DNA of 64,000 bases from Thermococcus zilligii AN1 (GTDB lineage: Archaea; Methanobacteriota_B; Thermococci; Thermococcales; Thermococcaceae): assembly GCF_000258515.1 (NCBI RefSeq), contig NZ_AJLF01000001.1:620001-684000 (forward strand), written 5' to 3'. Shown here in pieces: positions 56,210 to 59,593 of the stretch. Position 1 is the stretch's first letter; every line of letters starts with the position of its first letter. A program made the translations under genes and the position numbers. The notes beneath the pieces are model-generated. The model worked only from the letters and a program-made list of their open reading frames with translations, was not told the DNA's origin and searched no databases.

Positions 56210-57499
56210 TCACTCCTCGCCCCTCTGGATGGATATGACCATACCGGCAGCGACGGTCTGGCCCATGTCACGGATGGCGAACCTGCCCATCTGCGGGATC
56301 TCCTTGACCGGCTCGATGACCATTGCCTTGGTCGGCCTGAGGATGACGATGGCTGAGTCACCGGTCTTGATGAACTGCGGGTTCTCCTCGACAATGTTAC
56401 CGGTCCTCGGGTCGAGCTTGGCAAGGAGCTGCTCGAACTTGACTGCCACCTGGGTGGTGTGGGCGTGGAGCACCGGGGTGTAGCCGACGGTGATAGCGGT
56501 CGGGTGGTTGAGGACGATGATCTGGGCCTTGAAGGTGTCCTTCGGCCTGACGACGGTCGGCGGGTTGGTGGTGTGTCCCGCAACGTCACCGCGCTTTATG
56601 TCGTCCTTACCAACGCCACGGACGTTGAAACCGATGTTGTCACCCGGAAGGGCCTCCTGGAGTGGCTCGTGGTGCATCTCGATGGACTTGACTTCACCCT
56701 GGATCGGCTTGTGGAAGATAGTTGAAGCCGGCTCAAAGATGACGATGTCACCGACGCGGAGGATACCGGTCTCGACACGGCCGACCGGGACGGTACCAAC
56801 ACCCTTAATTGAGTAGACGTCCTGGATCGGGATGCGGAGCGGCTTGTCGGTCGGCTTTGGAGGCTCCGGGATCTGGTCGAGGGCCTCGAAGAGGGTCGGG
56901 CCCTTGTACCAGGGCATCTTGTCGCTCCTGTGGACGATGTTGTCACCCACCCAGGCGCTGGTCGGGATAATCGGGAAGTCCTTGTAGCCGAGCATCATGA
57001 GGAGCTTCTTGACCTGCTCGGCAACCTCCTTGAACTTCTTCTCGTCGTAGTTGACCGCGTCCATCTTGTTGATGCTGACGATTATGTGGTTGATACCGAG
57101 GGTCCTGGCGAGGAAGGCGTGCTCCTTGGTCTGGGGCATGACACCGTCGGTGGCGGCTACAACGAGGACGGCGGCGTCGGCCTGGCTGGCACCGGTGATC
57201 ATGTTCTTAACGAAGTCCCTGTGGCCAGGGGCGTCAATGATGGTGATGTACCTGTGCGGGGTCTCGAACTTGGTGTGGGCGACGTCAATGGTGATACCCC
57301 TCTCCCTCTCTTCCTTGAGCCTGTCCATGACCCAGGCGAACTTGAAGGACTTACCCTTCTCACCCATCTGCTCGAACTTCTCGATGATGGTCGGCGGGAC
57401 GTTACCGGTGTCGAAGAGCAGCCTTCCAACGGTGGTGCTCTTACCGTGGTCGACGTGTCCAATAAAGACGATGTTAATGTGGGGCTTTTCCTTGGGCAT
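56210..57499 (-). CDS. tuf: Translation elongation factor EF-1alpha
   Basis: 429 residues. G1 GHVDHGKST, switch and G3 DAPGHRDF, G4 NKMD, G5 SAW, then domains II ([13 protein letters not shown]) and III ([11 protein letters not shown]). It brings aminoacyl-tRNA to the ribosome. GGAGGTG is 7 bp before the ATG, a near-optimal ribosome site. An in-frame TTG two codons earlier is not used. TATA GATTTAAAAAG (minus strand, about 57548-57558) gives a leader of about 25 bases, as expected for a highly expressed gene. Confidence 0.97.
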
Positions 57500-57603
57500 T
57501 TTCAAACACCTCCATATTTTGGTCTACTCCGGCTGAGTAGGATGGCTTTTTAAATCTTTCGAACCTCGGCCCCCTCGGACGGGAAACCCGCCTTTTTCGG
57601 GGG

Positions 57604-57641
57604 GACCTCACGAGTTCCGTGGGTTAACTCGGGTGAGAGGT
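57604..57641 (-). other. Long imperfect hairpin downstream of the PfuExoI-like gene and upstream of tuf
   Basis: ACCTCAC-GAGTT (57605-57616) pairs with AACTC..GTGAGAGGT (57626-57641), a stem of about 16 bp with a small internal bulge and a 9-base loop. It lies about 35-70 bases past the stop of the PfuExoI-like gene. It could be the 3' end of that transcript, or a site near the tuf promoter. Confidence 0.3.
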
Positions 57642-57674: not shown

Positions 57675-58361
57675 CTAATCCCTCTTCCAAACTTCGAGAA
57701 CCATGAACTTTCTAACAAGCGGGTTCGGGTAAAGTTCCCAGTCTATGCCTTCGGTGTCGGTGGGTAGCCTACCGAAGAGTCCCCCCTCCCTCGGGTCAAG
57801 GCTTGCTCCGGCAATCTCCCCCTCAAGGATTTCGACTTCCATATACCTCGGCAGTCCCACGGCTACCCCGCCGTTTTTCCTGGCGTACTCTATGGCCCAC
57901 CTAGCAGCATAGAGGCCGGAGTATATCTCCGCTATCCTAACGGGAACGCTGGACTTTCCAATGGCTATTATCTCTATCCCCGTCTCTTCCCAGAACTTTC
58001 TCGCCAGAGGCTGGAGATCCTTTGCGAGGTCTCTCCACACTTCTTTTCCTCGGTCGGTTATGTTCAAAGCCTCTATCGTTGGTTCGTCAAGCTTCCTGAC
58101 TTCTATCCCCCCAATGGTGGAATCCAGGTGGACAACATCGGGCTTTACTTCTCTTGCCAGCTCAACTGCCAGAACTGCCTCATCCCTTATGGCCTGCCTG
58201 CCGCTCATGTCGTAGTTAAAAGGATCCGCGTACCTGACTCTGCTCACCGTTGCAGTCCTGTAGGGTTTTTCAACTAAAACCGCGGCCGTTGCTATGAGCC
58301 CGACAGGGTTGTACCCCTCGTCGAGAAGCGCCCCTCCGGTGTCAGCGGCAACTATTCTCAT
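57675..58361 (-). CDS. DUF4152 protein, PfuExoI-like 3'-5' single-strand DNA exonuclease
   Basis: 228 residues. An RNase H-like arrangement is suggested by the N-terminal IVAADTGGALLD and the second acidic strand VVHLDSTIGGIEV. A conserved AIGKSSVPVRIAEIYSGLYAA helix follows. It matches, to my recollection, P. furiosus PF2046, reported as a ssDNA-specific 3'-5' exonuclease. GGAGGTGAAAGC precedes the ATG. A box C/D sRNA sits directly upstream on the same strand and may share its promoter. Confidence 0.75.
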   Translation of the reverse strand: MRIVAADTGGALLDEGYNPVGLIATAAVLVEKPYRTATVSRVRYADPFNYDMSGRQAIRDEAVLAVELAREVKPDVVHLDSTIGGIEVRKLDEPTIEALNITDRGKEVWRDLAKDLQPLARKFWEETGIEIIAIGKSSVPVRIAEIYSGLYAARWAIEYARKNGGVAVGLPRYMEVEILEGEIAGASLDPREGGLFGRLPTDTEGIDWELYPNPLVRKFMVLEVWKRD

Positions 58362-58377
58362 GCTTTCACCTCCATGA

Positions 58378-58430
58378 AGGTCAGAACCTTTTGGTCATCA
58401 CCCCTCAGTACTCGGCAAACTCATCATCCC
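58378..58430 (-). ncRNA. Box C/D methylation-guide sRNA
   Basis: On the minus strand the order is C box ATGATGA (58427-58421), 12-nt guide GTTTGCCGAGTA (58420-58409), D' box CTGA (58408-58405), 3-nt spacer, C' box GTGATGA (58401-58395), 10-nt guide CCAAAAGGTT (58394-58385) and D box CTGA (58384-58381). Every box is consensus, and guide and spacer lengths are canonical for an archaeal dual-guide sRNA. The D' guide is complementary to ACTCGGCAAA, a sequence I recall from 23S rRNA. Methylation would fall on the base paired five positions from D'. Confidence 0.85.
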
Positions 58431-58570
58431 CCCATGGCCTCAAAAGCTGTTCGAGATTTTTCAGTAATCACCCCACAGGTAGAGGGGCTCACTGGTCAGG
58501 TTATCGCCCACATGTTTCCACCGGAGTTACCCTTATAACGTCGGGCGATTAAAACCTTTCCGGTGGGGAT

Positions 58571-59593
58571 ATGGCAACCAGGGGAGAGTGGCCGTTGTTT
58601 TTGCTCGCCATTGTCCTGGTCATTCTGGTCATCTCGTGGAAGACCGTAAGCCCGCTTGTGACCCCGGTATTCTTTGCCCTTACTCTGGCGTATATTGTGT
58701 ATCCGGTTCACCGGAGGCTTGAAGCGAAAGTTGGCCCACTAAAATCTGCCCTCCTCATGACCCTGCTTATGATCGTTCTGGGTCTTTTGATCCTCGCTCT
58801 TCTGGCAACGGTGGCCATAAACCTTCTCCGGACATTTTACAGAAACGTCGGCGATGTATTTAACTGGCTTTTGTCCGTTAATTTGCCTCCTTCGGTCTCC
58901 AGTTTTGTCCTGAACCTCAGGGCAAACTTGATGCCCATGCTGGCCGATTACGTTTCGTCATTTACCTTTTCTGTTCCGGGTTACGTCCTCCAGCTCCTTG
59001 TCTTTTTGCTCACGTTCTACTATACGTTGGCCTATGCCCGTGACATGATCCCGTTCATCCTCAAACTGGTTCCAGAAGGGCAGAAGGACTTTGTTTTCGA
59101 GCTTCTTGAGAACCTGGACAAAACGATGAACGCCCTCGTCAGGGCGTGGTTGCTTCTCAACGTCGCGAAGGGTATCCTGATGACCTTAGGGTACATTATC
59201 TTTGGGGTTTCGGATCTATACACCGCCCTGGTTGCGGGCTTTTTGACGTTCCTTTTCAGCTTCGTCCCCCTGCTTGAGGGGTGGATGCTGTGGGCTGTTG
59301 GGGCTGTATACCTTTACCTTTCCGGGTCACCCATCCTGGCCATCGGGATTTCCATCTACGGCGCGGCCCTGGTTTCCCCTCTCCCCGACTACACTATACG
59401 CCCAAAGCTGGTCGCCAGGGGTGCTGATCTTGACGAAACGATAGTCTTCATGGGCATGGTTGGAGGTACCTGGGCTTTTGGTCTCAAGGGGATCCTTCTG
59501 GGTCCGATAATCCTGAGCCTGGCCCTGGTGGTTTTAAAGGAGTGGAAAAACAGGCAGAGAGTGGCTAAAGTTTCTCGCACTCAACAAGCTTAG
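58571..59593 (+). CDS. AI-2E family (UPF0118) transporter
   Basis: 340 residues, about eight membrane helices in the order typical of the family: two N-terminal helices, FALTLAYIVYPVHRRLE, a loop, then GVSDLYTALVAGFLTFLFSFVPLLEGW and the conserved PLPDYTIRPKLVARGADLDE near residue 275. Members export small molecules or ions in bacteria. The archaeal substrate is unknown. GATTAAAACC about 25 bp before the ATG suggests a nearly leaderless message. The 3' end overlaps the convergent nicotinamidase gene by 29 bp. Confidence 0.83.
   Translation: MATRGEWPLFLLAIVLVILVISWKTVSPLVTPVFFALTLAYIVYPVHRRLEAKVGPLKSALLMTLLMIVLGLLILALLATVAINLLRTFYRNVGDVFNWLLSVNLPPSVSSFVLNLRANLMPMLADYVSSFTFSVPGYVLQLLVFLLTFYYTLAYARDMIPFILKLVPEGQKDFVFELLENLDKTMNALVRAWLLLNVAKGILMTLGYIIFGVSDLYTALVAGFLTFLFSFVPLLEGWMLWAVGAVYLYLSGSPILAIGISIYGAALVSPLPDYTIRPKLVARGADLDETIVFMGMVGGTWAFGLKGILLGPIILSLALVVLKEWKNRQRVAKVSRTQQA

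Follow-up and report, generated by a model that had tools for sequence, protein, structure and literature searches.

A box C/D guide RNA of the sR11 type upstream of a DUF4152 exonuclease gene in Thermococcus zilligii AN1: its predicted 23S rRNA target and the apparent reduction of its usual host ORF

Genes and sequence elements at the locus

The 64,000-nucleotide stretch of the T. zilligii AN1 genome analyzed in this work (hereafter, the window) carries on its minus strand, at positions 58381-58427, a box C/D sRNA with four exact boxes, located between a DUF4152 gene and a divergently oriented transporter gene. The features of the locus, in order of position, are as follows (strand in parentheses).

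57675..58361 (-): DUF4152 gene, 3'-5' exonuclease homologue (Pfam and structure homologues)
58366..58373 (-): Shine-Dalgarno-like GGAGGTGA of the exonuclease gene (by sequence)
58372..58380 (-): 3' arm of a possible extended terminal stem, CCTTCATGG, its last two G shared with the ribosome-binding site (two of three folds)
about 58378-58431 (-): probable mature RNA, its ends being deduced
58381..58427 (-): box C/D sRNA body, C box through D box (boxes and Rfam scores)
58381..58384 (-): box D, CTGA (by sequence)
58385..58394 (-): D guide CCAAAAGGTT, 10 nt (by sequence)
58395..58401 (-): box C', GTGATGA, holding the stop codon of ORF X in most same-genus copies (by sequence)
58402-58404 (-): D'-C' spacer, GGG (by sequence)
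58405..58408 (-): box D', CTGA (by sequence)
58409..58420 (-): D' guide GTTTGCCGAGTA, 12 nt, pairing with LSU 1809-1819 of 23S rRNA
58421..58427 (-): box C, ATGATGA (by sequence)
58428..58462 (-): surviving 3' end of ORF X; a T present in the relative G020 is absent (alignment with G020)
58429..58437 (-): 5' arm of that possible stem, CCATGGGGG, able to form 9 pairs, two of them G-U, with 58372-58380 (two of three folds)
58487..58511 (-): surviving 5' end of ORF X, of which about 8 codons can still be recognised (alignment with G020)
58547..58560 (-): candidate BRE/TATA element GAAAGGTTTTAATC (identical in G020 and consensus-like)
58571..59593 (+): divergent AI-2E family transporter gene, the outer landmark (Pfam)

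The organization described in an earlier note on this DNA, that is, four exact-consensus boxes, guides of 12 and 10 nt and a 3-nt D'-C' spacer, was confirmed in the sequence. The boxes C, D', C' and D follow each other at the spacing proper to archaeal box C/D sRNAs, and the D' guide has the complementarity to rRNA or tRNA around position N+5 that is expected of at least one guide in such RNAs, the nucleotide concerned being C1812 of 23S rRNA. In a search of 501 bp the window copy scored 38.3 bits (E 1.6e-6) with the Rfam family snoPyro_CD (RF00095) and 33.2 bits (E 2e-4) with sR11 (RF01150). Both values, the sR11 one included, lie below the respective gathering scores of 45 and 39 bits, and the sRNA was therefore absent from the output of the default Rfam scan of the whole window. 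Scanning of the source genome with RF00095, in which 150 of 460 candidates were scored, gave 24 matches at E<=1, with a single one above the curated score and the window copy in seventh place; the weakest of these matches mean little, since sub-cut-off matches to this family also occurred in 11 of 14 control genomes, bacteria among them. Another structured RNA, SscA (RF00063, 82.1 bits), was detected at 57523-57618 (-), directly upstream of a gene (56210-57505) resembling that of elongation factor 1-alpha by eye; SscA also occurs near the sRNA in G020.

Guide complementarity and distribution of the sRNA

Alignment of the D' guide to the rRNA of the same genome, the check proposed in the earlier note, revealed 10 Watson-Crick pairs and one G-U pair with 23S rRNA at LSU 1809-1819, where the target stretch is AACTCGGCAAAT with its first A mismatched; guide position 1 forms an A-A mismatch with 23S rRNA. 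The pairing partner ACTCGGCAAA named in that note is indeed present in 23S rRNA of the organism. The nucleotide facing guide position 5 is LSU C1812, which aligns with A1671 of E. coli, in agreement with the expectation that the C five positions from D' would be the modified one; the D' guide thus predicts Cm at LSU C1812 (E. coli position 1671). As 5 of 150 shuffled D' guides scored equally high in the rRNA of the source genome, the match in this genome alone is only moderately unusual, and it is the comparative evidence that carries the weight: the D' guide was directed at the same C of 23S rRNA, by 10-13 Watson-Crick pairs, in 22 of 22 genomes (27 genomes were requested, of which 21 had rRNA, and the source genome was added).

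The sRNA was searched for in 94 genomes of the family using a pattern composed of C box, guide core and D' box with two mismatches allowed. Matches were found in 44 genomes, comprising 36 of 61 from the same genus and 8 of 9 from a second genus, g3; with the pattern reversed as a control, none was obtained in the same 94 genomes. Among the copies within reach of this pattern, the 10-nt D' core TTTGCCGAGT was unchanged in all 44, the mismatches that did occur falling within the boxes. No match to the pattern, which copies diverging by more than two mismatches would escape, was obtained in 25 of the 61 same-genus genomes (e.g., G013, G031, G060, G071) and in any of the 24 genomes of four other genera, some genomes of both sets being incomplete. 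Since the genomes lacking a match include 33 of the 74 of good quality, the guide is not indispensable. A gapped exact pattern accommodating other spacing matched in 29 of 94 genomes and added no copy to those of the first search. We infer that the same genus is Thermococcus and that g3 is Pyrococcus, the latter because the g3 copies match the Pyrococcus family sR11 in four cases of four.

All four Pyrococcus-type copies tested exceeded the sR11 gathering score, and none of the four other Thermococcus copies tested reached that of any C/D family. The window sRNA shares with sR11 (RF01150, Pyrococcus) the 10-nt D' core, the target C in 23S rRNA and the box layout. Thus, the D' guide of sR11 and its 23S target are found in the window sRNA, whereas a D guide with a second 23S target is not: instead of the 12-nt D guide of sR11, targeting the equivalent of 23S C1894, it has a 10-nt orphan one. 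It also differs in genomic neighbourhood and in its score (33.2 bits against the gathering score of 39). In the three of eight Pyrococcus-type cases examined the gene is at another locus, 3' of an ORF resembling that of aIF2-beta by eye; because both the locus and the D guide are different, the common guide of Pyrococcus-type and Thermococcus copies could be a result of convergence. PMC3511168 credits sR11 to Gaspin et al. (2000) and gives SNORD96 as an equivalent modification. RiboMeth-seq data for P. furiosus have reportedly been placed in GEO (PMC7758197). The window sRNA is best regarded as the relative of the sR11 family in Thermococcus, which adds a further member to an established kind. 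The window locus was not found in the literature searched; relatives may be catalogued in the supplementary sRNA tables of T. kodakarensis and Pyrococcus, which lie outside that literature.

For the D guide no target was revealed in 23S or 16S rRNA of the source genome, the best run through N+5 scoring 6, a value that 138 of 150 shuffled D guides equalled or surpassed in the same rRNA; the target AACCTTTTGG proposed for it earlier is consequently not supported. Among its eight best matches to 44 tRNA genes, none inside a tRNA body scored above 6, and the matches of 7-8 fall in the 20-nt flanks. Considering the rRNA score, equal to that of shuffled guides, and tRNA bodies without a notable match, a second working guide was rejected, so that of the earlier designation 'dual-guide' the D' half stands (23S C1812) and the D half, having neither an rRNA nor a tRNA target in the source genome, does not. 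The window sRNA is thus predicted to have a single working guide. In Pyrococcus-type genomes the D guide forms 10-11 pairs with a second 23S site in five of five tested; this is the C1894-equivalent (E. coli C1773), 82 nt downstream of the D' site. In the 17 same-genus genomes tested the D guide consists of ten variable bases, with best rRNA scores of 6-8 that are scattered. With a constant target for the D' guide and, in the same genus, a variable D guide whose matches are scattered, the former is kept unchanged and the latter drifts. Archaeal sRNAs with an empty guide have already been described, and sR152 of Tte likewise combines a guide that has a target with one that has none (PMC4644070); as distinct from that case, a dual-guide form with the same D' guide as in the window sRNA exists in Pyrococcus-type genomes.

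The locus in relatives and the apparent reduction of ORF X

In three sRNA-bearing loci of relatives the gene order was established as follows: a divergent AI-2E-like transporter gene, ORF X (100-111 codons), the sRNA lying over the end of X, a convergent ORF Y (128-163 codons), and the DUF4152 gene. The presence of ORF Y at the remaining loci was deduced from the 343-519-nt spacing; for the transporter, the name comes from Pfam in the window and from inspection by eye in relatives. A Pfam search with three X proteins and one Y protein gave nothing over the cut-off. The order X, Y, DUF4152 was also encountered in four loci without the sRNA, where X ends differently. All 36 same-genus copies are at one locus, 35 of them near the DUF4152 gene and that of G062 at ORF X on a contig without DUF4152. 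In 32 of the 36 (29 of the parsed loci, together with G050, G058 and G062) the sRNA forms the 3' end of an intact ORF X: X usually finishes in GMMxLPSxE-stop, its final codons coinciding with the C box, D' guide and D' box and its stop codon lying within C'. Weaker second matches to the ORF X profile, several with an internal stop, were observed at second loci in several genomes (e.g., G000:C1:253124-253249, G000 being the source genome) and suggest a small paralogous family.

The boxes and the D' core of the sRNA are retained in all four copies in which X is altered or was not found, i.e., in the window and in G020, G030 and G016. In G020, a TGA inside the C box terminates X, and the Y-containing spacer is gone; G030 yielded no ORF X but has kept the sRNA with an identical D' core; in G016, X is split by an insertion carrying an ORF that resembles TnpB by eye, the sRNA being intact. 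G020 is the closest relative compared, with a 92% identical DUF4152 protein. As in G020, the spacer to the exonuclease gene is gone in the window; relative to G020, about 195 bp from the middle of X are missing (a net loss of about 173 bp), and the 5' and 3' ends of X and the element GAAAGGTTTTAATC still align. The base beside the D' box, the spacer and the D guide differ between the two copies, and the guide core is identical. The element GAAAGGTTTTAATC is probably the old promoter of ORF X; a crude promoter scan did not place it on top, other stretches scoring equally or higher. Since the sRNA persists where ORF X does not, the guide RNA apparently outlasts the ORF, suggesting that selection acts on the RNA rather than on the ORF. 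The differences between the loci are computed and the direction of change is deduced from them; the events in G016 and in the source genome may have happened too recently to carry information by themselves.

Archaeal C/D sRNAs that overlap the 3' end of an ORF, one of their boxes containing its stop codon, are established (Tripp et al., 2017, as described in PMC7994747), as are those in 5'-UTRs, with 11 potential 5'-UTR snoRNAs in T. kodakarensis (PMC4247193). The sRNA analyzed here has in common with them the 3' overlap with the host ORF in relatives, the stop codon in a box and the leader position, and differs in that it occurs in both positions among relatives and that the host ORF is cut down where the sRNA is in the leader.

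Placement before the exonuclease gene and alternative readings

The gene following the sRNA, called PfuExoI-like in the earlier note, encodes an exonuclease homologue. Its product matches PF13680 over the full length (430.1 bits), and its homologues include the structurally solved 3'-5' exonuclease PhoExo I (4yor, E 2.3e-110) and PF2046 (4o8u). Between the D box and the ATG of the gene (58361) there are 19 nt, GGAGGTGA included. A further ATG, located upstream within the ribosome-binding region, begins a frame of 5 codons, MEVKA (58358-58375, minus strand), overlapping the exonuclease start; in G020 the equivalent ATG is in frame with the exonuclease gene.

A position of the sRNA in the leader of the exonuclease gene is plausible. 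Such adjacency was found in 4 of 34 parsed same-genus loci (the source genome, G020, G052, G067); the distance from the D box to a motif just inside DUF4152 is 26-32 nt in these four, 172 nt in one and 343-519 nt in 29. The parsed set represents 34 of the 44 pattern matches, G062, G050 (sRNA 473 nt upstream) and the eight Pyrococcus-type copies being outside it. A conserved pairing of the sRNA with the exonuclease was therefore rejected, adjacency in 4 of 34 loci being lineage-specific. G052 and G067 have the same adjacency with X intact. The codon-level DNA tree of DUF4152, covering one gene in 27 of 36 genomes (nine were dropped by the filter), joins the source genome and G020 with G024, G028, G069 and G070 against the rest at a bootstrap of 100 and places G052 and G067 on the other side, apart from each other, which suggests, for this one gene, at least two losses of the spacer. 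The protein tree of DUF4152, from which 4 of 37 rows were dropped by a motif filter, did not separate the origin of the adjacency. In a search that was crude and used post hoc motifs, an AT-rich element upstream of DUF4152 was present in 55 of 88 regions and absent from 33, namely all four adjacent cases and 29 others. Because this element is missing before the gene in the window, transcription of the exonuclease gene probably starts at the old X promoter and passes through the sRNA.

Taken together, these data are best explained by an sR11-type guide for 23S C1812 that derives from a leader and has outlived ORF X and the spacer, its D guide being orphaned; we estimate the probability of this explanation at roughly 0.86. 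The sRNA would be made from the minus strand as part of the exonuclease mRNA, whose 5' leader it would constitute, the promoter used being probably the one that remained after the deletion of ORF X; L7Ae, Nop5 and fibrillarin would bind it at its two k-turn motifs, and it would be trimmed out of the precursor. Its D' guide would then direct 2'-O-methylation of 23S C1812 (E. coli position 1671), and the D guide would be left orphaned. The greater part of X would have been lost, as would the spacer before the exonuclease gene, with the RNA outliving both. The boxes, the D' complementarity with its conservation and the drift of the D guide were obtained by computation; transcription unit, processing, sRNP assembly and methylation are deduced.

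It is also conceivable, though unlikely, that the RNA does two jobs, the k-turn in the leader and the 9-bp terminal stem allowing L7Ae or sRNP assembly to hold back exonuclease translation as long as the sRNA has not been excised. The possible stem reaches 9 bp in G020, 9 bp with two G-U in the source genome and 8 bp in G030, as compared to 2-5 bp in 40 of 43 copies, and flank shuffles reached such a stem in 129 of 20000 and 315 of 20000 cases; in the 121-nt fold predicted for the window leader the start-codon region is paired as well. Precedents are provided by L7Ae of Sulfolobus, for which PMC5539422 gives autoregulation via a 5'-UTR k-turn, and by a 5'-overlapping sRNA that lowered transcription of a downstream reporter gene (reviewed in PMC7994747). 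However, the stem test was chosen after the stem had been seen; of the three folds of the window leader, that of 92 nt lacks it, and no fold stands out by its stability (z -0.87, 0.20, -0.12); the fold of G020 keeps 8 stem pairs without extension over the start codon. Moreover, the 9-bp stem occurs in two close relatives only, and G052 and G067, which are gene-adjacent too, have stems of 2 and 4 bp. Rather improbable is the more specific version, according to which, after the loss of the host ORF and the spacer, the long stem burying part of the ribosome-binding site would let sRNA maturation (the supply of L7Ae/sRNP) gate exonuclease synthesis in this small lineage.

A decayed relic, i.e., a former guide RNA unexpressed or non-functional since the loss of its host ORF, would accord with the cut-down X and with a D guide devoid of a target in the source genome; we regard it as distinctly improbable, since there is no deviation in any of the four boxes or in the D' core, the putative promoter does not differ from that of G020 although the middle of the ORF is gone, and the changes against G020 affected the D'-adjacent base, the spacer and the D guide but not the guide core. 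As for a chance C/D-like sequence in the leader, strings of C box plus D box are common (52 matches in the source genome versus 14 for the reversed pattern), but the Rfam E-values and the comparative evidence, that is, the D' guide conserved in 44 genomes and the common 23S target, make this explanation very unlikely, to the point of being negligible.

Returning to the leader-derived guide that outlived ORF X, its biochemical function is a textbook one, and its local history is traceable. The guide RNA would have been kept where its usual host ORF was lost, with the second guide and the gene neighbourhood turning over around it. Such a locus may serve to examine by what route C/D sRNAs are freed from coding or leader transcripts, and which half of a dual-guide RNA is under selection.
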